Below, one piece after another: positions 24,016 to 36,378 of a stretch of DNA of 36,378 nucleotides. Source of the stretch: a virus; the IMG/VR virus record IMGVR_UViG_3300025632_000039, positions 1-36,378 of that record. One strand, written 5' to 3'. Below the pieces are notes generated by a model. That model was not told the DNA's origin and did no database searches. It saw only the letters and a list, made by a program, of their open reading frames with translations. Numbering within the stretch: position 1 is the first letter of the stretch; every line of letters begins with the position of its first letter. Made by a program: the position numbers and the translations under genes.

Positions 24016-24054
24016 ACAGCAAAAACTGTGACTATATTAGGTATAAATTTAATT

Positions 24055-24549
24055 ATGTCTAAAAATAAAATACAAAAAACCAAGCACGAATTATCTAGTG
24101 ATTTTAGACAAAAAATTACTAAGCTAGAGCAAACCATGATTGCTAGTGCTGATGGTGAAAATATTATTGCTGGTACTAAAGATAAACCTATAGTTACTAA
24201 CAGTAATAAAATACCTATTAAACATTTCTTTATGGAGGGTGTATATGTTAGAGAGATGACAATGTTTGAGGGTACAGCTGTTGTAGGAGCTATTCATAAA
24301 CATTTACACATGTGTTTTTTATTATCTGGATGCTTAACAGTTACAGATGAAAATGGAACTAAAGATTATATAGCACCATGTTATATAATATCTAGTCCAG
24401 GAATTAAAAGAGTATTATATGCTCACGAAGATTCTGTGTGGTACAATATTCATCAGAACCCTACAAACACAGAAGATGTAAAAGAAATAGAAGAAAATTT
24501 AGTTGCAATAAATTATAAAGAATATGAAAAATATATTAACGAAAAATAA
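24055..24549 (+). CDS. Cupin-fold phage protein
   Basis: This 164-aa protein has a cupin-type metal site: MTMFEGTAVVGAIHKHLHMCFLLSG, with H81, H83 and H85 available and G92 at the turn. It continues with TVTDENGTKDYIAPCYIISSPGIKRVLYAHEDSVWYNIHQNP, where the last His-containing part corresponds to cupin motif 2. Cupins are small double-stranded beta-helix proteins that bind Fe, Mn or Zn. A phage copy could be an enzyme or a virion component, and the substrate is not readable. ATG 24055 is chosen over the GTG at 24028 because it is a standard start with the A-rich leader and the added residues would be hydrophobic and unexplained. The N-terminal 60 residues are helical and charged. Confidence 0.7.
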   Translation: MSKNKIQKTKHELSSDFRQKITKLEQTMIASADGENIIAGTKDKPIVTNSNKIPIKHFFMEGVYVREMTMFEGTAVVGAIHKHLHMCFLLSGCLTVTDENGTKDYIAPCYIISSPGIKRVLYAHEDSVWYNIHQNPTNTEDVKEIEENLVAINYKEYEKYINEK

Positions 24550-24555
24550 TAAGAT

Positions 24556-25173
24556 ATGGGATTTGTAGTAACAGCAGCCGTCGTAGGTGGTACTGTTGGG
24601 TTAGCAAAACTCGGTATGTCTTTAGGTGGCCGTAAAAAAAGAATAGCTGAGCAGAAGGCGGCTAAGAAAGAAATGGAGGCATCGAAAAAAGCGTACGCAG
24701 CTTTAGATGTTAGTAACACTTTTAAGAACATGGAGAATAAAATGGAAGATCTTACTATCAATCAAAAAGGTGCTCAATTCGAGGCTGAAAAAGGAGCTCA
24801 AAGTAGAGCTAATACTATGCAGCAATTACAAGGTGCAGCTGGTGGGTCTGGTATTGCAGCTTTAGCACAACAAATGGCTAACTCAGGACAGCTAGCAGCT
24901 CAAGCGGCTAGTGATAAAATAGCTACACAAGAAGCTGCTAATCAAAAAGCGGCGTCAAAAGAGGCTGCAAGTTTACAAATGAAAGAAAGAGAAGGTGAAG
25001 CTGTTGCTCAACAAAGACAAATGGATAAAACCGGAACACTGCTTGGAATGTCGCAACAAAGAACTGCTGCTGCTAATCAAGCAAGAGCAGATGCTAAAGC
25101 GGCTCAAATGGGTGCTATTGGTGATATTGGTGGTGCGGTTGTTGGAGGTTTAACTGGTGGTGTTGGAAAATAA
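24556..25173 (+). CDS. Internal virion/ejection protein candidate (T7 gp14-like)
   Basis: This 205-aa protein has a hydrophobic N-terminal segment GFVVTAAVVGGTVGLAKLGMSLGG (about 2-25), Gly-zipper in style, followed by a long Ala/Gln/Lys-rich helical region (about 30-180) and a C-terminal Gly-rich hydrophobic tail (GAIGDIGGAVVGGLTGGVGK). Ala-rich helices flanked by glycine-zipper ends are a feature of podovirus proteins injected into the cell envelope, such as T7 gp14 (196 aa). Gene order, followed by a mid-size and a giant protein, supports this. Direct homology is not visible. Confidence 0.6.
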   Translation: MGFVVTAAVVGGTVGLAKLGMSLGGRKKRIAEQKAAKKEMEASKKAYAALDVSNTFKNMENKMEDLTINQKGAQFEAEKGAQSRANTMQQLQGAAGGSGIAALAQQMANSGQLAAQAASDKIATQEAANQKAASKEAASLQMKEREGEAVAQQRQMDKTGTLLGMSQQRTAAANQARADAKAAQMGAIGDIGGAVVGGLTGGVGK

Positions 25174-25189
25174 ATTAAAAAAATAGATT

Positions 25190-26593
25190 ATGGCAAGTGA
25201 TACTAACTTAATTCAAGGAGCTGCTGCGGCTTACAAAGACAGAGACGCAGCTGGTATGAAACGAGCTGGTATGGGGTTAGATAAAATAACCGCAGCGGCT
25301 AACGCGTGGCGTGACACAAAAATAGCAGAACAAAAAGCTGAAGACAAAAAAATTGAAGCTCTTCAAACTAAACTGAACGAACAGATAACAACCGAAGCCG
25401 CAACATCTAAGGCTTTAGGAAAATCAGAATACAACGCCTTTAAAAAAGATGCTAGAGCAATAAGAGATAGGTTGTTAGAAGCTAAAAGAAGTGGAGATAT
25501 TGATGCGCAGCAAGACGCTCAAATAGAGTTAAATGAATTAATGACTAACTCTCAAAAACTTAAAGATAGTTATGAAGCTATTGGTGAGAGTATTCCAGAA
25601 CTAGACATGAAGGCTATGACACAAGAGGGTAGGGATGCTTTTGAAAACTTTAAAAACAATCCAACTAGAGAACATTTTAGAAATGAAGATGGTGAAGATG
25701 CTTATAGATGGCAGGTGTTAGACGAAAATGGTCAACCAGTTCAAGACACTAACGAAGATGGTTCACCTAAAGTTGACCCTGACACTCAACAACCAGTTTA
25801 CAAAACACAATCATATACTCCAGATCAAATAAATGATCTTGGTGTAATGCCACAAACAGCAAACGGTAAACTTTTAAAAGACTTTGAGTTAGAATTAGCT
25901 GAAAACTATGAAGCTGGAGGTAGTATGGACAAAGCTATTAACGTAAGAGATGTAAGAGCAAAAGTAGCAGATCTTATACCAAAAACTCCAGAAGCACTTA
26001 GAAGCTGGGCTAAGAGTAATCCTACTGAAAACCATAAGCTAAACGTTGGAGGTTATTTATTAGATAATATATCTAGATTAGGTAACTATTCTGATTTAGG
26101 TGTTGTGTTTGAAAATTTAGAAGGCGTTGAAGATAAGCAAAAAGAAGGAGAACCCGGTTATGGTGTTATAGATGAAAATGACTTAATAAGTGATGAGGAT
26201 AAAGGTAAACTTGTCGATGCTATAATGAATGCTGATTACCCGGACATATCGCACGGTATATTAACAGAAGTTTATACTAACATAACTTATAATAGAGCAA
26301 TTGGTAAAGAAAACTACGATTATGACGACGGAGCGGATAACATGCTAGACGGATCATCTGCTGAAACACAAGATGAGAGAGATAAAGTTTTAACTGAAAA
26401 ACAAAAGACAAATTTAGTTGAGTTAAAGAAAGATCCTAAACCAGGAGAAACACCGAAAGCTATGGCTAAAAGATTAGACATGGATGTTAAAGATACTATA
26501 TGGGATGAGGAGACTCAAAAATTTATAAGTATACAATCATTGTACGCCACAGCGGCAAATAAGAAGGCAATAGGAGATACATCAAAATTTTAA
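25190..26593 (+). CDS. Helical internal virion protein candidate (T7 gp15-like position)
   Basis: This 467-aa, mostly helical, charged protein opens ASDTNLIQGAAAAYKDRDAAGMKRAGM. It has Lys/Glu/Gln-rich helices over residues about 40-140 (EQKAEDKKIEALQTKLNEQ) and a more varied middle and C-terminal half with acidic segments (EDGSPKVDPDTQQPVYKTQSYTPDQIN). No signal peptide, TM helix or catalytic motif is visible. It lies 16 bases after the glycine-zipper protein and 11 bases before the giant protein. The three look co-expressed and may form an ejection complex, with this as the second component. T7 gp15 is larger (747 aa), so the parallel is positional. Confidence 0.55.
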   Translation: MASDTNLIQGAAAAYKDRDAAGMKRAGMGLDKITAAANAWRDTKIAEQKAEDKKIEALQTKLNEQITTEAATSKALGKSEYNAFKKDARAIRDRLLEAKRSGDIDAQQDAQIELNELMTNSQKLKDSYEAIGESIPELDMKAMTQEGRDAFENFKNNPTREHFRNEDGEDAYRWQVLDENGQPVQDTNEDGSPKVDPDTQQPVYKTQSYTPDQINDLGVMPQTANGKLLKDFELELAENYEAGGSMDKAINVRDVRAKVADLIPKTPEALRSWAKSNPTENHKLNVGGYLLDNISRLGNYSDLGVVFENLEGVEDKQKEGEPGYGVIDENDLISDEDKGKLVDAIMNADYPDISHGILTEVYTNITYNRAIGKENYDYDDGADNMLDGSSAETQDERDKVLTEKQKTNLVELKKDPKPGETPKAMAKRLDMDVKDTIWDEETQKFISIQSLYATAANKKAIGDTSKF

Positions 26594-26604
26594 AATAATA
26601 TATA

Positions 26605-29600
26605 ATGGCATATAACGAAGAAGCTTTAGACTACGCTTATAATGATTTTAAGCAAGGTGGTTATTCTAAATCTAAAGAGGAGTTTGTTGAACTATTGGGT
26701 TCTAATGAAGAGGCTTTTAAAATGTCTTACGATTCATTTAAACAAGGTGGGTACGCAAAAAGTGCTGAAGAATATAGTACTTTGCTTGGGTTAACACCAG
26801 CAGCCCAAGAAGACTTTCCAGCAGACGAAGAAGTAAAGGAAGATCCATCACAGGAGGATGTCACTGTGGAAGGAGAAGATGGGGCATCCGAATCTGGGGA
26901 TACTTCTTCGGAATCACAAGAGACTGAAGAAGGGTTTGATTATGAGGCTGAAAAATTTAAAACAGAAGAAGATCTTAAAAAAGAAGACGATGAGTTTTAT
27001 GAAGCTTGGAAAGAAATTAATCCAGACAGTAATTTAACTAGGGAGGAGGTTACAACTGAAAAGAAAAAAAGAGACGCAAAAGACGAGGAAGAACCAACAG
27101 CGGATATTGATACTTCTGACCCATTGATGAGACCCTATTTGATGGATGAAAACCAGTTAATAGCACAACCATCTTCAACAGCGGTTCCTCAGCTTAACGA
27201 AGGAGAGCAAGAAGAAAGAACAAGAAAAGGAGTTGAAAAAGAAAATCTAGAAAAACAAGCGTTAACCGATTTAAACAATTACAAGAAAAAACATAGACAT
27301 CAGTTTCAAGAAGTTACTAGTAATTACGACCCTAATTTTCCTACACCCGATGGTAACATAACATTAGCCCCAGTGGGTACCGCTATAACAAAATCAATGA
27401 ATGAAAAGTTGGTATTGGGTATGATAAAGAATAATAAAGAAATTCAAGAAGTTATTATTCCGAGTCTTTATACTGATAATAAGAAAGAAATTGAAAATAA
27501 AATACAAGAATTAAGAAGTAAATACGGAGATGGTACTAACTTCTATTCTGAGGCTGACTATGCGGAAGCACAGGGAGAATTAAACTCTTTTGTTTCTAGC
27601 TTTTTATTTGAACACCCAAGATATGTTGAGATTGTAAATCAATACTCAAACGCTATGAACAAGCTGAATCTTAAAGATAATTCAGCATACCAAGTAGATA
27701 AAAATACTCCTCCGTGGTTGAAAGGTTTAGAAAGGTTTGGGCGAAAAAGTCCTCTTAATTTTCTTAATTTATCTCCAATGGCAGCATACAGCACGGCTCA
27801 CAGCATGGGTACGGGTATGTTTGGTCATGTTTCAAAATTAAAAGAAAAATATGATTGGGGGCCAAGGTATGAAAAACATCAAAGAAACCTACAAAGAGCA
27901 GAGCAAGAAGGTTGGGATGATAGTAAAACTGGTTTTGTAAACGAGCAAGGAGACTTTAAACCCTTGGCTTCTAAGAGAGATGATTATAGAACCCCAACAA
28001 CTTGGGGTGAGGCTAAGAAAAACATGCAAAAGATTCTTAACAAGAACCAAGACGACTTTAAAAGGGATCTAATGATTATTCAAGAGCGTCGCGCTAAAGA
28101 GGGGGCTTTTAAAAAAGCTTCGTTTGAAAGATTTGCTTCTGGAGAGCATAGTTTAAAAGAGTTGGGTTTAATGATATCAGAACAAGGACCAAATATGATC
28201 GCAGCCTTAGCGTCTTTTGGTGCTTTACCAGCCATGAGTGAGGGTGCTACTATTTACGAAACTTTAGTAAGAGATGCCGCTAAAGAAAAGTATGGTTTAC
28301 TATTTAAAGAACCTACAGCAGAGCAAATGTATCAAGTTTTAATGGATGATACAGGAAACAAAATGGCTGATACAGCTACCGCTTCAACCGTTGCTATAGC
28401 TGGATTAGAGTATATTGGCGCTAGAACAATGATGCCCGTATTTAAAGACGCTATAGGATCTTTGTTAAAGGGTCAATTTAAAAGATCGTTAAGAGGATTA
28501 GCTAATACTGGTCAAAGTATGGCTTTGGGTGGTTTTACAGAGGGTTTAACTGAGGGTTTGCAAACAGTAGTATCTAGTATGGCGACGGGTCATTGGAGAG
28601 CTGAAGAATTTACTGAGGCTATTGGAATGGGTACTGTAATGGGTGTAATAATGCCTTTTGGTGGAAGTGTAGTTACTCAAACCTCAAGAGAACTTAGCGA
28701 AAGTATAAAAATAGTTGCTAGTAGATATGATAAAAAGGTTTCAGATAAAATGTTTAACAACCACCAGTCTTTATTAGATGAAGCTTTGAAGACGGGGCAG
28801 ATAGACATGCAGGAATACAAAGAAAAAACGGAGGCGTTAGCATCTGTAAGAAATAGCAATAACAAAATACCTAAAAATCTTAACGAAAAAGAAAAAACTG
28901 AATCTATAGATTTACTTATAGAAAAAGAAACTATAGAAAAAGAAACAGAAGGCAAAGATAAAAACCTTGTTGTAAAACAAAGTGAGAGAGTAGAGGCTAT
29001 AGACAATAGATTACAAGAAATTGGTTCTGAAGCACAGTTAAGATCTGTAAAGAAAATAGCCGAACAGGTAGAAGAAAAAACAGGTAAAAAAATAAATATA
29101 CGTAAAGGTAATACAAAAGATCAAAAGGCTTTTCTTGAAGAGCAAGAGGGAGATGAAATACAGTTCAGCAAAGGTGTTGTTAATTTTATGAAGGAAGTTA
29201 TAGCTGACCCAACCTCTACAAATGAAGAAGTAGCAGAAGCAAGGGCTATATTAAGAGCACAGAGAAAAGGAGATAGACAACGTTTAAACGCTATAAAAGG
29301 AGGCTCTACTAACTACGGTAGCATGATACCCGTGCTTAATGAAAACGGAGAGGTTATAAGTTTTGACATGTTTATAAACGAGGAAACTTCTATGCAAGAT
29401 GGTATGGTCAACACCGCTGCTCACGAAATGTTTCACGCCATGTTGTTTGCTACGCTCAAAGGTAATACTGAAACACAAATGGATTTTGGTCAAGGCGTAT
29501 TGAGTGCTATGGAAAATGGTGGCATGCAGCTGAAACCTGGTAGTAGTTTAGCCGCTAGAATGAGTATGTATTCTCCAGAAGAAGGTTTAGGGGAAGAGGT

Positions 29601-32600
29601 CGCAACATTAACTTCAGAAGCCATGTTAAATGACGAGGTTGATATAAACGAAACTGGTTTTGACATACTAGGGAATATGTTAAGAAGATTTTCACAAAAA
29701 CATCTTGGTGTTTTGGGTGGTATAAAGTTTAACACAAACAAACAAATATTTAATTTCCTTAAAGATTATAATAAATCTATAGAAGATGGTAAGGGGTTAA
29801 ACAAAGCGATGTTAAAAGCCTTTACAAAAGGAGTTAAAGGTAAGGTAATAAAAGGATCTAAAGAAGCTAAAGCGCAAGTTATGGGTTCTAAATCTGGATT
29901 TGCTCAAGATGAGATTATTAAAGATTTAGGTTTAGCCTCAAACACTGCTGATATTGTTTCTAGAAACGAATCTATAGAAAAAGATATTATAAAAGAAGGT
30001 GTTAAAGATGACAAAGGTAATATAATAGCATCTACAGCAAACCAAAGGAGATTAGCCGAAAATAATTTACCTAGAGCTTTTGCTCTGGCTAGACAAGCTG
30101 CTAATAAAGGAAATGATCTTACGTTAGAAGAGGGTTTAAAAATGAACGACGTTATGGAGTTTTTTAGTGAATACTCTTTAAAACTTACTGAGTTAGCTAG
30201 AACGTACAAAGCTCAAATGATAGATCCTAAAACTGGTAAAATTATAAAAGTACCGTTTGGTGCTTATATGAACTCGTTGCTACCATTAAAGTATTCTGGT
30301 ATATTAGACAAGCTTAAAAGTAAAGTTGAAACATCTAGCATGTCAGATGAAACAACTGCTAAAACAGTTGCTAAAAAGTTTGCTTCAAATACAGAACTTT
30401 CTAACACGGAAGTTGAGGGTAAAACTGTAGCTTTAAATTCTATTAACGAAAACAAAGTTCAAAAGCAATTAGTTAAAATAGCTAAAGGAATAGAGTTACT
30501 TGGGGGGTTACGTAAATACAAAGACGTTAAAGGCGAGCTAGTTGCGCACCGTAAGTTTATGAAAGACGGTACTGAAATAACTCCAAAGCTAAAAGCTCAA
30601 TACAAAAAAGATGGTAAAAAACCGCCTAAAGAATTAAAATCTCTACGTGAACCAATAGGCGAGTTATACGGTGGGCTAGAAGCTGTAGCTAGTATATTTG
30701 GTAAAGATATTGCTATTAGAATTTTACGAGAACAAGATCTTACTACTGAACAACGAAGATCAGCTCAAGATAAAATATTACAATATACCCCAGAGATAAT
30801 AGCTATGATGCCATTTGGCACGACAGCTAGTGGTGATGCTACTGGCGTTGCTAATACTAAATTAAGTATATTTTATAAAAAACTGGCTAGAACCAAAATG
30901 AAAAATACTGGTACTGGTAAAGGTTTAGCTACACAACAAAAACAAAATATAGATCCTACTAAATTTAGAGAGTTAGTAGGTCTCGTGAGAGGCGGTAGAA
31001 TAAACAACACGTCAGTAGACGGTGCTATTAGAGCTATTATAGTTCAAGTTGCCGCTATAGCCAACAATCAATCTATAAGACAAACGCACGGTCCACAAAC
31101 ATTATCTTTAAAAGATGGTAAAGCATCTACAATGTGGAGTAAAAGATTTACGGGTGATGGTACTATAGAGGGAGATATGAGTCTTTTAATGTTACAGGAA
31201 AACGTTTCTTATCAAAAACTACTTCAATCTAAAATAGATGCTCTTGTTAAAGATGGTTTAATGACAAGGAAAGAAGCTGAAGAAACTTATGGTTCTATAG
31301 ACATGAACTCAGAAGAAGGAAGAGCTGACATGCTAAATTGGGTGTATAATAATATGAGTAATTATATGCCTTGGTCTTTCTTTAATCACACTGGTAATTG
31401 GACTGGTACGTTTACAACTGTTAAAATTGATAAAATACCGAAGAAAGAATGGCGTAAAAAACGAGATGATTATTCTGTAAGATCTTTTAAAAAACCTTAT
31501 GCTGATTTAACTAAAGATCAAAAAAAGGTAGTTGAGAGAAAAATGACAAAAGATAATTGGCCTGGAGAAATAACTGAGAAGAAACACAAGGGTAATCTTC
31601 TGTTTAAAGACGCTGTAGAGTTAAAAGAAGCTCAACAAGCGTTTATAGACAGTGGTGCCGCTTGGAATGGTGAGAATATATCAGAACAAGATAAAACCGA
31701 TATTGCTAATGCGTTAAAAAGAACAACTCAAAACGAAAAAAATCTTAAAGATAAAAAAGCCAAAGCTAGTAAGAGAAGGGGTGTAAAATTAATATGGGGT
31801 ATATTTGAGCAAATGGTTCAAGATAACCCAGCTAATTTAAAATACATAGCGGCTCTATTGTCGTCTTCAGCTTCTCAACAAGGACATTTTATGAGAACTG
31901 GTTCTGATTTTGCTTTCTTAAACACTTTAAGTGGTAAAAACGTAGAAGAACACACGCAGGCTGCAACCGCTTTTGGTAGATTTTTGTTTAGTAGATTAGC
32001 AGAAGGTAGTTTATCAGAAAACATAGATGTTGCTTTGGAGTCTTATTTTCAAGGTTCTTTACCAAAAATATATGATAATAAATTAAAAGGTGACACTTGG
32101 AGTTATCAAAGTGATGCCGGTAGATACACATGGGGAGTTTTAACTGGACAGATGAACATCTGGGTTAGATACTTTAATCCGGACGTCAACAACAATAACG
32201 GTGGTATTGACCCTAATGTAATAGTTTTATCAAACGGTAAAACGTTGGCTCAAGAATATGGAGTTGATACTAAAGGTGAGGTTACACCTGAAATTTTAAA
32301 ACTACAACAAGAAACCTTGTTTAGATTGTTTAGTGGTGAAATTGACGTTAACGATGCTAGATTAACTATGGAAGCTTTAGTTAAAGTAAACAGAAAACCA
32401 GGTATTGAAGAGGCTGTTATTTTGGATAAGGCTAGAAAAAAAGCTAGAGTTTATGCTTCTAAGCCAGCTAAAGGAATTACAGTTTTAGATTTTGATGATA
32501 CGTTGGCTACAAGTAAATCTTTAGTTATATCTACGTCACCTGATGGTGCGGTTAGAAAGCTAACGGCTGAAGAATTTGCTCAAGAGGGCGCTGATTTATT

Positions 32601-35280
32601 AGATCAAGGTTGGACACATGATTTTTCAGAATTTAGTAAAGTTGTGGATGGTAAAGTTGCATCGCTGTTTAATAAGGCAATGAAATTACAAGGTAAATTT
32701 GGTCCTGAGAATATGTTTGTACTAACAGCAAGACCTGCTGATTCTGCCCCAGCTATATTTGAGTTTTTAAAAGCTAATGGTTTAAATATACCATTAAAGA
32801 ATATTACTGGTTTAGCAAATTCAACGCCTGAGTCTAAGGCACTTTGGATAGCTGATAAAGTTGCTGAAGGATATAATGACTTTTATTTCGCAGACGACGC
32901 TTTACAAAACGTGCAAGCTGTAGATAATATGCTAGAACAATTTGATGTTAAACGTAAAGTTCAACAAGCTAAAATACAATTTAGTAAAAGGTTAAACCCT
33001 GAGTTTAACAATATATTAGAAGGATCAACCGGCGTTGAATCTCAAAAACAATTTTCTGATGCTCAAGCAAAATTAAGAGGTCAAAAAACTAAATACAAAT
33101 CTATAATACCAGCATCTGCTCAGGATTTCCAAGGATTATTATATAACTTCTTAGGTAAAGGTAAGAAAGGAGAGGCCGATATGGTTTTCTTCAAAAAAGC
33201 TTTAATAGATCCATTTGCTAGAGGTATTAATGAGTTAAATGCGTCAAGACAAACAGCTGCAAATGATTTTGAAAATTTAAATAAAAAATTCCCTGATGTT
33301 AAGAAGAAACTTAACAATAATATAGAGGGCTTAGACTATACTTACGATCAAGCTATGAGAGTTTATCTTTGGAATAAAGCCGGTTTTGAGGTTCCTGGTT
33401 TGTCTAAAAGAGATTTAGCAGCTTTAACTAGTATAATAGAAAATAATCCTGAAATGAAAGTTTACGCTGACGCTATAGGTTTAATTTCTAAAAAAGAAGA
33501 TGGTTATTCGCAGCCTAAAGACTATTGGTTAGCTGAAAGCATTGCTTCTGACTTATTGAGTGATGGCGCGATTGGAGATAAAAGATCTGATTTCCTTGCT
33601 GAATGGATAGAGAATAAAAACATGATATTTTCTCCTGAAAATCTAAACAAAATAGAAGCTATATATGGTTCTAAGTTTAGAGAAGCTTTAGAAGACATGT
33701 TATATCGTATGGAAACTGGTAGAAACAGACCAATGGGTGGTGGTAGGTTAGTAAACGGTTTTATGAATTGGACAAACAACTCTGTTGGTGCAATCATGTT
33801 CTTGAACTTACGTTCTGCTACACTACAAACTATATCGGCTGTCAATTACGTTAATTGGACTGACAATAATCCGGCTAAAGCAGCCGCAGCATTTGCAAAT
33901 CAACCACAGTTTTGGAGAGACTTCTCTTATATATTTAATTCTGATTATTTAAAACAAAGAAGATCTGGTAATCAAAGAGGTGTAAATGAGGCAGAATTAT
34001 CTGAAGCAGTAGCTGGTAGTGATAATAAAGCTAAAGCGGCTATAGCTTGGTTGCTTAAAAAAGGGTTTACACCAACACAGATTGCAGATAGCTTTGCAAT
34101 ATCTATGGGTGGTGCTACGTTCTACAGAAATAGAATTAAAAAGTATGTCAAAGAAGGTATGACTACAGAGCAAGCTGAAAAACAAGCGTTTTTAGATCTT
34201 CAAGAAACAACAGAGGTAAACCAGCAATCAGCTAGACCTGACATGATATCTCAGCAGCAAGCGTCTCCACTTGGTAGATTAATATTAGCATTCCAAAATA
34301 CCCCTATGCAGTACGCTAGGATAATGAACAAAGCCACTAGAGATTTAGTAAATGGTAGAGGTGATTATAGAGCTCATGTATCTAAGATTGTTTATTATGG
34401 TTTTGTTCAGAGTATAATATTTGGTGCTTTACAATCTGCATTGTACGCTTCGCTTGGAGACGATGATGAAGAAGATTTCGGCAGAAAGAAGGAAAGAATA
34501 TTAAATCAAATGGTAGATTCTTGGTTAACTGGTATTGGTTATGGTGGTAAAGCTATTGGAACAATGAAAAATACCATTATGGAGTACCTAAAGCAAAGAG
34601 ACAAGGGTTTTAACTCTGATCATGCTTACACATTGTTAACTCTACTTAGTTTCTCCCCACCAATAGGATCTAAACTACGTAAGATATATTCATCTATACA
34701 AACTGAAGAATTCAATAGAGGTGTTTTCAGTAAAAGAGGATTTACTTTAGATAATCCTATTTGGTCTGGTATTGGTAATGTTGTTGAAGGCCTTACAAAT
34801 ATTCCGCTTGGTAGGATATCTAATTTAATGTTACAACTAGATAACGCTATGGATCCTGCTCACAAATGGTGGCAACGTGTTGCCTTGTTATTAGGACAAA
34901 ACACTTGGGACTTAGGAATTAAAGATCCAGATATCGAAGCTGCTAAAGACGAGGTAAAAGAAGAAAAGAAAATAGAGTCTAAGAAGAAAGCTAAGATCAA
35001 GAAGGAGCAGAAGAAAAAAGAAAAAGAAGAAGAGAACAAAGCTGTAATAGAAGAGAACAAAAAGAAAAGTAAGAAAGACGGTATTTGTTCTGCTGTAAGT
35101 AAAAGTGGTAAAAGATGTAAAACTAAAGTTGTTGATGGTAAACTATTTTGCACTGTACACGAGTCTACTACTAAAAGATCTGACGGTAAAGAAGTTCAGT
35201 GTAGAAAACGTAAAGCAGACGGCAAAAGATGTAAGATGAAAACGACAAACAAAAGCGGGTATTGTTACTACCACGATTAA
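26605..35280 (+). CDS. 2891-aa giant multidomain virion protein (peptidase, HAD, Cys3His modules)
   Basis: Visible segments in order: two 30-aa repeats (residues 5-62); an acidic disordered region (about 65-170); a glycine-rich, membrane-like region (about 525-690, with ALGGFTEGLTEGLQ); a metallopeptidase with H940-E-x2-H944 and E997/E998 as possible third ligand; and a HAD phosphatase. The HAD motifs are D1962-F-D1964-x-T1966, T2041 in MFVLTARP, K2078 and DD2097-2098. Further on are a helical block with FQNTPMQYARIMNKATRDLVNGRGDYR before an IIFGALQSALYASL hydrophobic stretch (about 2560-2620), a Lys/Glu coiled coil (about 2775-2825) and two Cys3His modules at the end. Such fusions correspond to 'polyvalent' proteins injected with phage DNA. 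Position parallels T7 gp16. No RNA-polymerase DFDGD motif is present, so it is not the crAss-type virion polymerase. Confidence 0.8.
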   Translation: MAYNEEALDYAYNDFKQGGYSKSKEEFVELLGSNEEAFKMSYDSFKQGGYAKSAEEYSTLLGLTPAAQEDFPADEEVKEDPSQEDVTVEGEDGASESGDTSSESQETEEGFDYEAEKFKTEEDLKKEDDEFYEAWKEINPDSNLTREEVTTEKKKRDAKDEEEPTADIDTSDPLMRPYLMDENQLIAQPSSTAVPQLNEGEQEERTRKGVEKENLEKQALTDLNNYKKKHRHQFQEVTSNYDPNFPTPDGNITLAPVGTAITKSMNEKLVLGMIKNNKEIQEVIIPSLYTDNKKEIENKIQELRSKYGDGTNFYSEADYAEAQGELNSFVSSFLFEHPRYVEIVNQYSNAMNKLNLKDNSAYQVDKNTPPWLKGLERFGRKSPLNFLNLSPMAAYSTAHSMGTGMFGHVSKLKEKYDWGPRYEKHQRNLQRAEQEGWDDSKTGFVNEQGDFKPLASKRDDYRTPTTWGEAKKNMQKILNKNQDDFKRDLMIIQERRAKEGAFKKASFERFASGEHSLKELGLMISEQGPNMIAALASFGALPAMSEGATIYETLVRDAAKEKYGLLFKEPTAEQMYQVLMDDTGNKMADTATASTVAIAGLEYIGARTMMPVFKDAIGSLLKGQFKRSLRGLANTGQSMALGGFTEGLTEGLQTVVSSMATGHWRAEEFTEAIGMGTVMGVIMPFGGSVVTQTSRELSESIKIVASRYDKKVSDKMFNNHQSLLDEALKTGQIDMQEYKEKTEALASVRNSNNKIPKNLNEKEKTESIDLLIEKETIEKETEGKDKNLVVKQSERVEAIDNRLQEIGSEAQLRSVKKIAEQVEEKTGKKINIRKGNTKDQKAFLEEQEGDEIQFSKGVVNFMKEVIADPTSTNEEVAEARAILRAQRKGDRQRLNAIKGGSTNYGSMIPVLNENGEVISFDMFINEETSMQDGMVNTAAHEMFHAMLFATLKGNTETQMDFGQGVLSAMENGGMQLKPGSSLAARMSMYSPEEGLGEEVATLTSEAMLNDEVDINETGFDILGNMLRRFSQKHLGVLGGIKFNTNKQIFNFLKDYNKSIEDGKGLNKAMLKAFTKGVKGKVIKGSKEAKAQVMGSKSGFAQDEIIKDLGLASNTADIVSRNESIEKDIIKEGVKDDKGNIIASTANQRRLAENNLPRAFALARQAANKGNDLTLEEGLKMNDVMEFFSEYSLKLTELARTYKAQMIDPKTGKIIKVPFGAYMNSLLPLKYSGILDKLKSKVETSSMSDETTAKTVAKKFASNTELSNTEVEGKTVALNSINENKVQKQLVKIAKGIELLGGLRKYKDVKGELVAHRKFMKDGTEITPKLKAQYKKDGKKPPKELKSLREPIGELYGGLEAVASIFGKDIAIRILREQDLTTEQRRSAQDKILQYTPEIIAMMPFGTTASGDATGVANTKLSIFYKKLARTKMKNTGTGKGLATQQKQNIDPTKFRELVGLVRGGRINNTSVDGAIRAIIVQVAAIANNQSIRQTHGPQTLSLKDGKASTMWSKRFTGDGTIEGDMSLLMLQENVSYQKLLQSKIDALVKDGLMTRKEAEETYGSIDMNSEEGRADMLNWVYNNMSNYMPWSFFNHTGNWTGTFTTVKIDKIPKKEWRKKRDDYSVRSFKKPYADLTKDQKKVVERKMTKDNWPGEITEKKHKGNLLFKDAVELKEAQQAFIDSGAAWNGENISEQDKTDIANALKRTTQNEKNLKDKKAKASKRRGVKLIWGIFEQMVQDNPANLKYIAALLSSSASQQGHFMRTGSDFAFLNTLSGKNVEEHTQAATAFGRFLFSRLAEGSLSENIDVALESYFQGSLPKIYDNKLKGDTWSYQSDAGRYTWGVLTGQMNIWVRYFNPDVNNNNGGIDPNVIVLSNGKTLAQEYGVDTKGEVTPEILKLQQETLFRLFSGEIDVNDARLTMEALVKVNRKPGIEEAVILDKARKKARVYASKPAKGITVLDFDDTLATSKSLVISTSPDGAVRKLTAEEFAQEGADLLDQGWTHDFSEFSKVVDGKVASLFNKAMKLQGKFGPENMFVLTARPADSAPAIFEFLKANGLNIPLKNITGLANSTPESKALWIADKVAEGYNDFYFADDALQNVQAVDNMLEQFDVKRKVQQAKIQFSKRLNPEFNNILEGSTGVESQKQFSDAQAKLRGQKTKYKSIIPASAQDFQGLLYNFLGKGKKGEADMVFFKKALIDPFARGINELNASRQTAANDFENLNKKFPDVKKKLNNNIEGLDYTYDQAMRVYLWNKAGFEVPGLSKRDLAALTSIIENNPEMKVYADAIGLISKKEDGYSQPKDYWLAESIASDLLSDGAIGDKRSDFLAEWIENKNMIFSPENLNKIEAIYGSKFREALEDMLYRMETGRNRPMGGGRLVNGFMNWTNNSVGAIMFLNLRSATLQTISAVNYVNWTDNNPAKAAAAFANQPQFWRDFSYIFNSDYLKQRRSGNQRGVNEAELSEAVAGSDNKAKAAIAWLLKKGFTPTQIADSFAISMGGATFYRNRIKKYVKEGMTTEQAEKQAFLDLQETTEVNQQSARPDMISQQQASPLGRLILAFQNTPMQYARIMNKATRDLVNGRGDYRAHVSKIVYYGFVQSIIFGALQSALYASLGDDDEEDFGRKKERILNQMVDSWLTGIGYGGKAIGTMKNTIMEYLKQRDKGFNSDHAYTLLTLLSFSPPIGSKLRKIYSSIQTEEFNRGVFSKRGFTLDNPIWSGIGNVVEGLTNIPLGRISNLMLQLDNAMDPAHKWWQRVALLLGQNTWDLGIKDPDIEAAKDEVKEEKKIESKKKAKIKKEQKKKEKEEENKAVIEENKKKSKKDGICSAVSKSGKRCKTKVVDGKLFCTVHESTTKRSDGKEVQCRKRKADGKRCKMKTTNKSGYCYYHD
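26617..26790 (+). repeat. Two 30-aa N-terminal repeats of the giant protein
   Basis: Residues 5-32 and 35-62 repeat with period 30: EEALDYAYNDFKQGGYSKSK then EEAFKMSYDSFKQGGYAKSA, each closing with EE[FY]..LLG. They are probably helical pairs. Similar AY..F...GY repeats are seen at the starts of large Bacteroidetes phage proteins. Confidence 0.85.
35086..35274 (+). repeat. Two identical-spacing Cys3His zinc modules at the end of the giant protein
   Basis: C2828-x9-C2838-x10-C2849-x2-H2852 and C2866-x9-C2876-x10-C2887-x2-H2890 share the same spacing with a 38-residue period. Around the second Cys each has GKRCK and the last pair is FC..H or YC..H. This looks like zinc binding, possibly to DNA. 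Confidence 0.85.
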
Positions 35281-35314: not shown

Positions 35315-36378
35315 ATGGTAAGAAAACTAATAATATTGCTACTGCTTATATCTAATATAACTGTAGCGCAAACATTTGGTAAAGAAGAGATTAAAAGCTT
35401 ATTAAAGTATTCTACTTTTTACACAGCTGTTAACGGTGGAACATCACTTTCTGATGTTGATGTATTTTCTGTAGATAATGGTTTATCTACACAGACTATA
35501 TCAACTCCTTATGATTATAATTTTACCATAGGATTGCGTAAGATTGCAAGGTTTGGCTATGAAAACAAAGCTCAAACATTTTATGATGGCACGGAATCTA
35601 ATTACAGTGATGCGGCCACTGTCGGTAAAGTTAAGGGGGTTGAGTACTTATTTGAGGTTGATTACAAAAGACAAGAAGGTGTTGACTATATGGATCAACA
35701 TCATTTTATTAGATTTAGCTCTGACGATGGTTGTCCAGATGAACTGTGTATAAACTTTTTTGCTTTAAAGATAGAGTATTTAGAAGATGGTTTTGCAGAT
35801 ATTAAATATTTTGAAGCATCGGAAAGATATAGACAACGTAAAAGTAAAAACCTATCATGGAACGTTGGGTTAACGCATAGACTTGCTGAGCCTTATGGTT
35901 ATAACGCTTTGGATGAGTGGATGTTAGACAACGGTGATTTACATTATACATATTTAGCTTTACAGGAAGGCTACGAAGTTGATGTGTATAGCAACTCATA
36001 TTACTCTCCTTCTGGAGAACTTGTAGCTACTAGCGCTGAGGTTTGGGAGGCAGTTGTAGTGCCTCAAGTGCTAGCTGATTACACTGAAAAGAAAAGAAAT
36101 GAATTAAAGAAAACTATACAACATTCTTTTGTTGTTGGTTTTGATTACTATAAGTACTCTAAGAAAACATGGATGCACGCTTGGGGAAGTTTAATGCCTT
36201 ATCATTATGATGATGGCAGCGAATTTAGCTACCACAATTATGTTGACGGTCAATGGTATGATTATTCTGGTGGATTAATATACGGAATAAAAGTAAACAA
36301 AAACTTAGGATACTTTGTGGAAGGAAAATACAATAAGTACTGGAATAGAGAATGGTACGACTTTAAATTAGGATTAAA
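35315..36378 (+). CDS. Secreted, beta-barrel-like outer-membrane protein candidate (3' end missing)
   Basis: An open frame from ATG 35315 runs 354 codons to the window edge without a stop, so the C-terminus is missing. Residues 1-18 form a clear Sec signal peptide: positive start (VRK), hydrophobic core (LIILLLLISNITV), then cleavage after A18 with Q19 next, the typical Bacteroidetes form. The mature part is rich in Tyr, Trp, Asp and Gly, with alternating-residue strands (FVVGFDYYKYSKK, GYFVEGKYNKYWNREWYDFKLGL) ending in aromatic residues as in outer-membrane beta-barrels. A phage-encoded outer-membrane protein could block receptors or change host surface properties; this is inferred. Two Cys lie close together (DDGCPDELCINFF). 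It is 34 bases after the giant gene. Confidence 0.7.
   Translation, partial: MVRKLIILLLLISNITVAQTFGKEEIKSLLKYSTFYTAVNGGTSLSDVDVFSVDNGLSTQTISTPYDYNFTIGLRKIARFGYENKAQTFYDGTESNYSDAATVGKVKGVEYLFEVDYKRQEGVDYMDQHHFIRFSSDDGCPDELCINFFALKIEYLEDGFADIKYFEASERYRQRKSKNLSWNVGLTHRLAEPYGYNALDEWMLDNGDLHYTYLALQEGYEVDVYSNSYYSPSGELVATSAEVWEAVVVPQVLADYTEKKRNELKKTIQHSFVVGFDYYKYSKKTWMHAWGSLMPYHYDDGSEFSYHNYVDGQWYDYSGGLIYGIKVNKNLGYFVEGKYNKYWNREWYDFKLGL

Follow-up and report, generated by a model that had tools for sequence, protein, structure and literature searches.

A probable ejected polyvalent giant with predicted zincin metallopeptidase and HAD phosphatase modules in a probable marine Bacteroidota podovirus

Main finding

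In this study, a giant gene product encoded in a 36,378-base IMG/VR record of an uncultured virus (IMGVR_UViG_3300025632_000039, hereafter the window) was identified as probably an ejected polyvalent protein of a marine podovirus infecting Bacteroidota. The ORF at 26605-35280 started with ATG and contained 0 internal stops. The whole reading is that the ejected giant carries a self-processing zincin and a HAD phosphatase that probably acts on nucleic-acid ends; its probability was put at about 0.5. The first-pass annotation had proposed that the gene product is a polyvalent-type fusion, that its slot is of the ejection type and that it acts early after entry. Slot synteny, a gp14-like neighbour, a cysteine desert and the match of the helical C-terminal region to polyvalent proteins supported the fusion and its slot, and on the same basis early action at entry is probable.

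Gene neighbourhood

The three adjacent genes at the end of the head operon were as follows.

24556-25173, + strand: smaller of two ejection-type proteins, in the T7 gp14 position; 205 aa, Cys-free, with a hydrophobic N-terminus
25190-26593, + strand: ejection-type protein in the T7 gp15 position; 467 aa, Cys-free
26605-35280, + strand: giant, probably ejected, polyvalent-type protein, 2891 aa

PHROG family matches showed GroES-like, terminase, portal and head genes upstream of the giant. The window portal was about 27-50% identical to portals of Flavobacterium (elemo), Cellulophaga, Maribacter and Tenacibaculum phages. The two candidate internal proteins described earlier before the giant were both present and Cys-free. 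The 205-aa protein was 57% identical to its counterpart in the related locus L001, which matched the phi38:1 structural protein gp099 at 27%, linking the window protein to gp099 via L001. The giant was the last of the three genes and was Cys-free but for its terminal modules, consistent with T7/N4-type ejection sets.

The last head-operon slot was also occupied by a giant in elemo (3694 aa), the Cellulophaga phages phi38:1 (gp101) and phi19:3, Maribacter phage Panino and MW202828. The elemo giant and phi38:1 gp101 are called 'structural protein', an annotation that rests on the records. No homology was detected by hhalign between the C-terminal region of the window giant and elemo gp18 or the MW202828 giant.

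Two further genes were observed around the trio. A small cupin-like protein (HKHLHMCFLLSG...) was encoded at 24028-24549, between the head genes and the ejection trio, and was also found in L001. The gene after the giant (35315-36376, running off the window end) had a signal-peptide-like start and read like an outer-membrane beta-barrel protein; the giant of L001 was followed by the same gene.

Cysteine content and terminal modules

35086-35274, + strand: two Cys3His modules, C-x9-C-x10-C-x2-H, sole cysteines of the giant

The giant contained six Cys in total, all in these modules (C2828/C2838/C2849/H2852 and C2866/C2876/C2887/H2890), and the terminal zinc modules called by the first-pass annotation were confirmed in the sequence as two copies. 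DUF5763 (PF19067) matched in two stretches with 17.8 bits, below the Pfam gathering cut-off of 26.3.

The bodies of 92 giants contained 11 Cys in 239,397 residues (0.046 per 1000), and 84 giants had none; the other ORFs at the same loci had 11.4 Cys per 1000. Cys was uniquely depleted, with a giant-to-neighbour frequency ratio of 0.004, the next lowest residue having 0.64. The two ORFs upstream of the giants were also nearly Cys-free (17 of 44,201 and 9 of 22,525 residues). Zero Cys was counted in T7 gp15 and gp16 and in N4 gp50 (3342 of 3500 aa checked), gp51 and gp52, and one in T7 gp14. The absence of Cys in N4-like vRNAPs has been published and tied to injection (PMC3915230, PMC2784036). 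The Cys-free body of the giants may reflect a largely unfolded exit through the tail. Already known for N4-like vRNAPs, the cysteine desert was seen here across 92 giants, and it may serve as a guide to further ejected proteins.

Modules of the giant and their distribution

Besides the enzyme domains, the following regions were distinguished.

26605-26802, + strand: N-terminal tandem repeat, residues 1-66, common to the MW202828 giant (BLAST 4.7e-6)
28372-28794, + strand: Gly-rich, mildly hydrophobic region, residues 590-730, homologous in L001
30595-31104, + strand: 'TG' conserved module, residues 1331-1500, in about 1/3 of relatives
31513-32295, + strand: 'EH' conserved module, residues 1637-1897 (E 6.8e-66)
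32992-35004, + strand: C-terminal region, residues 2130-2800, constant and helical throughout; probably the virion/ejection part

Pfam, PHROG and NCBIfam searches with the giant and with parts of it gave sub-threshold matches only, and those to Nop5_N, DUF1707 and zf-primase were dismissed as due to chance. The 'EH' module, with the consensus H-x-hR-x-GAE...yEHA, occurred in about 1/3 of relatives. A glycine-rich, membrane-like region had been claimed earlier; residues 590-730 were indeed about 11% Gly, with a single moderately hydrophobic stretch at 672-690, and no clear transmembrane segment was found in them, which leaves the membrane-like part of the claim weak.

A Foldseek search of BFVD with the C-terminal model returned close viral relatives (43-58% identity), Cellulophaga phi19:3 S0A015 and some 45 phage proteins sharing 10-17% identity. 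Several of these phage proteins were named 'large polyvalent protein' or 'PolyVal ART' (E 1e-11 to 1e-4), and one BFVD relative was named UDP-N-acetylglucosamine kinase. Several catalytic domains in one 2891-aa protein, together with folds shared with annotated large polyvalent proteins, place the giant in the polyvalent class.

The C-terminal region as query returned 18 loci, and the HAD region returned at least 584 IMG/VR loci. The giant and the HAD gave no matching record by tblastn against 50,697 phage records. The C-terminal region was present in all of 94 large ORFs with a median identity of 47%, and the HAD had a median of 76%. The N-terminal 600 residues of the window giant were matched in 5 of these ORFs, the zincin part in 46 (28% identity) and the zinc tail in 25. 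The first 80 relatives were picked by HAD similarity, so the prevalence of the HAD among them is biased; 12 of the 18 relatives found via the C-terminal region had the HAD, and five of those 12 had the nested kinase described below. Identities of the two regions were discordant: pairs with 46% C-terminal identity reached 96% in the HAD, and pairs with 80% went down to 70%. The HAD was therefore read as a cassette that moves between giants which have otherwise diverged, and by these comparisons it is the most conserved, swappable module of the giants.

Matches in genome contigs were also considered. They lay on short contigs (<=14.9 kb) in MAGs of Maricaulis, Woesearchaeota, Aliivibrio and Ilumatobacteraceae. 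A prophage or host origin was rejected because the contigs were short and the MAGs unrelated, and the matches were read as stray phage DNA.

HAD phosphatase module

32473-32970, + strand: HAD phosphatase cassette, residues 1957-2122; the window copy holds no nested kinase

All four HAD motifs (I-IV: DxDxT, T/S, K, DD) were found in the window giant. The residues reported in the first-pass annotation as a complete set, D1962, D1964, T1966, T2041, K2078, D2097 and D2098, were all at their positions, and each was 100% conserved (66 of 66 sequences). Motif I and the DD pair were separated by a constant 137 residues. The dN/dS of the HAD was 0.02-0.12 across eight pairs, showing strong purifying selection.

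Structure prediction had been recommended as a check; AlphaFold gave a HAD fold, and the zincin model aligned with lethal-factor zincins. The AF2 model of the HAD showed a Rossmannoid fold with a cap, with pLDDT mostly 50-77. Many of its top structural rows were HAD phosphatases, aligned over about 100 residues, and the neighbours included class C acid phosphatases and phosphoserine phosphatase. The structural matches of both enzyme domains were modest (Z <=7.5 for the HAD, 5.9 for the lethal-factor zincin). Foldseek of both models (HAD/C-terminal and zincin) against PDB gave no E below 0.19, and only the second look with VIA-align was informative; the HAD profile had no match among PDB sequences. 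The best Pfam match of the HAD was DUF2608. The family phrog_415, 'polynucleotide kinase', was matched by 12 of 21 HADs (best 6e-5); the window HAD did not match it at E 0.1. Motifs, fold and purifying selection predict with high confidence that the module is an active phosphatase.

Kinase-like domain inside the HAD flap in relatives

Loci such as L001 and L015 had a P-loop domain of 199 residues just after HAD motif I, which lengthens the spacing between motif I and the DD pair to 336. It was carried by about 60 virus contigs (L001, L011, L015, L021; L111-L172) and was absent from the window giant. The insertion point corresponded in the model to the turn of the HAD flap hairpin (strands 1974-1977 and 1983-1986). 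The nested kinase matched AAA_33 (5e-10) and Zeta_toxin (1e-9) in Pfam and phrog_505, 'polynucleotide kinase', with E down to 2e-11. Against structures, it matched polynucleotide kinases weakly and also, weakly, PezT. Its relatives in cultured phages included RNA ligase/polynucleotide kinase proteins; no RNA ligase was seen within the 36-kb window.

Phage RNA repair by polynucleotide kinase and HAD is established (PMC7824862). The polynucleotide-kinase-like domain nested in the HAD flap of relatives suggests that the HAD heals nucleic-acid ends. A nucleic-acid end had been among the substrates first considered; the nested domain strengthened this part of the proposal, and the lack of that kinase in the window copy weakened it.

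Standalone relatives of the nested kinase were observed in L191 (3980-4642) and L192 (2977-3645), belonging to HTVC008M and Melnitz. A search run without a positive control found no HAD of this type in HTVC008M. The Melnitz standalone kinase starts with MKTFAELQE, which we take to resemble the T4 capsid-targeting leader.

Zincin metallopeptidase module

29032-30009, + strand: zincin metallopeptidase domain, residues 810-1135 (modelled)
29422-29436, + strand: active-site HExxH, H940-H944, with E998 (29596-29598) as third ligand

The motif H940-E941-M-F-H944 was the sole HExxH of the giant. Such a motif arose in 1.5% of composition-preserving shuffles of the giant, and it was present in nearly every relative. 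Profile iteration around it brought together 68 relatives. In an alignment of 59 zincin sequences (14-58% identity to the window copy), the only fully invariant positions were H, E, H, the later Glu (E998), one Asn and one Phe, in agreement with the earlier claim of an HExxH peptidase. The model had a mean pLDDT of 79 and placed HExxH on a helix and Glu on the next, the arrangement of the zincins of polyvalent proteins. The longest structural alignments of the model were several lethal-factor entries (Z 5.1-5.9, 148-164 residues), below trusted Z. Polyvalent MPTases have been linked to the lethal-factor zincin family (PMC5512222); judged from the model, the resemblance of the window zincin to lethal-factor zincins is in fold only.

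Junction motif

29164-29172, + strand: FSK junction motif before the zincin, F854-S-K
32980-32988, + strand: FSK junction motif between the HAD and the C-terminal region, F2126-S-K

FS[KR] was found in 52 of 72 short junctions between the HAD and the C-terminal region, 46 of 88 windows before the HAD and, for the 'TG' module, 17 of 34 ends, compared with 2.8% of random windows; the counts beside the HAD are not independent, because HAD-adjacent junctions are partly inherited together. Away from the HAD, [IV]xFS[KR][ST] was observed 17 times vs 0.7 expected. The motif was not shown at the starts of the 'TG' module or at either edge of the 'EH' module. A WSK variant of the [IV]xFS[KR] motif was seen at 31135-31143 of the window, and L016 carried six sites. 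The FS[KR] junctions are proposed as candidate processing sites of the zincin.

Proposed mechanism and alternative explanations

Together with the two small upstream gene products, whose gene order with it matches that of T7 gp14-gp15-gp16, the giant is very probably packaged into the head, and it would pass out through the tail mostly unfolded. Packaging and ejection may be the task of the constant helical C-terminal region, and the variable N-terminal two thirds may carry exchangeable enzyme modules, as their sequence patterns suggest. The zincin would most likely make cuts in the giant at the borders of its modules, FS[KR] being possible sites, and free the enzymes after entry, a step considered slightly less than an even bet. 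Self-processing has been proposed for polyvalent proteins (PMC5512222); the N4 vRNAP, which also has an MPTase, goes into the particle unprocessed (PMC5512222), which counts against it. The HAD would most likely act on nucleic-acid ends, such as 3' phosphates of host tRNA or phage DNA that defence nucleases have damaged, again at slightly less than even odds. In some relatives, the 5'-polynucleotide-kinase-like domain in the HAD would complete a kinase-phosphatase pair for end healing. The full chain of virion-delivered end healing, in which the zincin cuts FS[KR], the HAD 3'-phosphatase (with the nested kinase in some relatives) is freed and repair precedes phage expression, is rather improbable as a whole.

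The retention of the zincin also bears on the alternative that it is an injected effector cutting a host protein and not the giant itself. Such effectors are known in conflict systems (PMC5512222), and 14-58% identity around an invariant active site could mirror changing host targets. A host target, as first suggested, nevertheless became less likely: the zincin is nearly universal whatever the other modules and is kept while the N-terminal half changes, and FS[KR] recurs at module junctions, so that a general processing role, and with it self-processing, fits better. The effector is a rather unlikely explanation. For the HAD, the corresponding alternative is that it breaks down a small phosphorylated molecule, either a signal or a metabolite (such as a defence nucleotide or a sugar phosphate), the nested kinase being a zeta-type sugar-nucleotide kinase. 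The Zeta_toxin and weak PezT matches of the kinase, the BFVD relative called a UDP-N-acetylglucosamine kinase, and the acid phosphatase, phosphoserine phosphatase and DUF2608 matches of the HAD are consistent with it. The phrog_505 and phrog_415 matches of the kinase and the HAD, the RNA-ligase fusions of kinase relatives and the lack of the kinase in the window copy argue against it, and a small-molecule substrate was considered improbable to a similar degree.

A structural or tape-like internal protein, whose enzyme domains are passengers or serve assembly (head maturation), would agree with the helical C-terminal region constant in all 94 relatives and with the head genes in the neighbouring slots. 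The invariant catalytic residues and the low dN/dS of the HAD oppose it, as does the absence of Cys, which matches ejected proteins. The HAD is moreover exchanged between lineages and missing in 6 of 18 C-terminal relatives, unlike an assembly enzyme. Such a role is very unlikely. If the reading as an ejected giant with a self-processing zincin and a HAD phosphatase is true, a phosphatase enters the cell along with the genome in a major group of marine Bacteroidota phages, and the cassette concerned is spread over hundreds of marine virus contigs.

Comparison with known systems

The window trio resembles T7 gp14-gp15-gp16 and N4 gp52-gp51-gp50 in being three adjacent genes of rising size with the giant last. 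It differs from these sets in that the family searches performed found no sequence homology to them, and in that the window giant has a zincin and a HAD, whereas the T7 and N4 giants have a transglycosylase or an RNA polymerase.

The giants of elemo, phi38:1/phi19:3 and Panino share with the window giant the last slot after terminase, portal and head genes and the absence of Cys. Among the slot-equivalent giants, homology to the window giant is limited to the N-terminal repeat of MW202828 and a marginal zincin match of elemo (E 0.04). The elemo and MW202828 giants, like that of the window, have HExxH sites; unlike in the window giant, no HAD motif or terminal Cys3His modules were found in them. 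The elemo, phi38:1, phi19:3 and Panino giants have 0 Cys in the whole protein, whereas the window giant has the terminal six.

The relatives of the window giant are similar to T4 Pnkp-type kinase-phosphatases and phage RNA-repair HADs (PMC7824862) in combining a HAD with a P-loop polynucleotide-kinase-like domain. The kinase is N-terminal in the T4 Pnkp type and lies inside the HAD flap after motif I in the relatives; the window copy differs further, being a HAD alone within an ejected-type giant.

Compared with polyvalent proteins (PMC5512222), the window giant is likewise a multidomain phage giant with a zincin MPTase as hub and swappable enzyme domains, and its C-terminal region matches annotated large polyvalent proteins structurally. 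Unlike in the surveyed proteins, the most conserved module here is a HAD, with a nested kinase in relatives; the main text of that survey (PMC5512222) makes no mention of a HAD phosphatase. The polyvalent class and Cys-free injected vRNAPs were known, whereas the HAD cassette, the HAD-kinase nest and the zinc tail as the sole Cys site, undescribed in the open-access literature searched, are the new elements.
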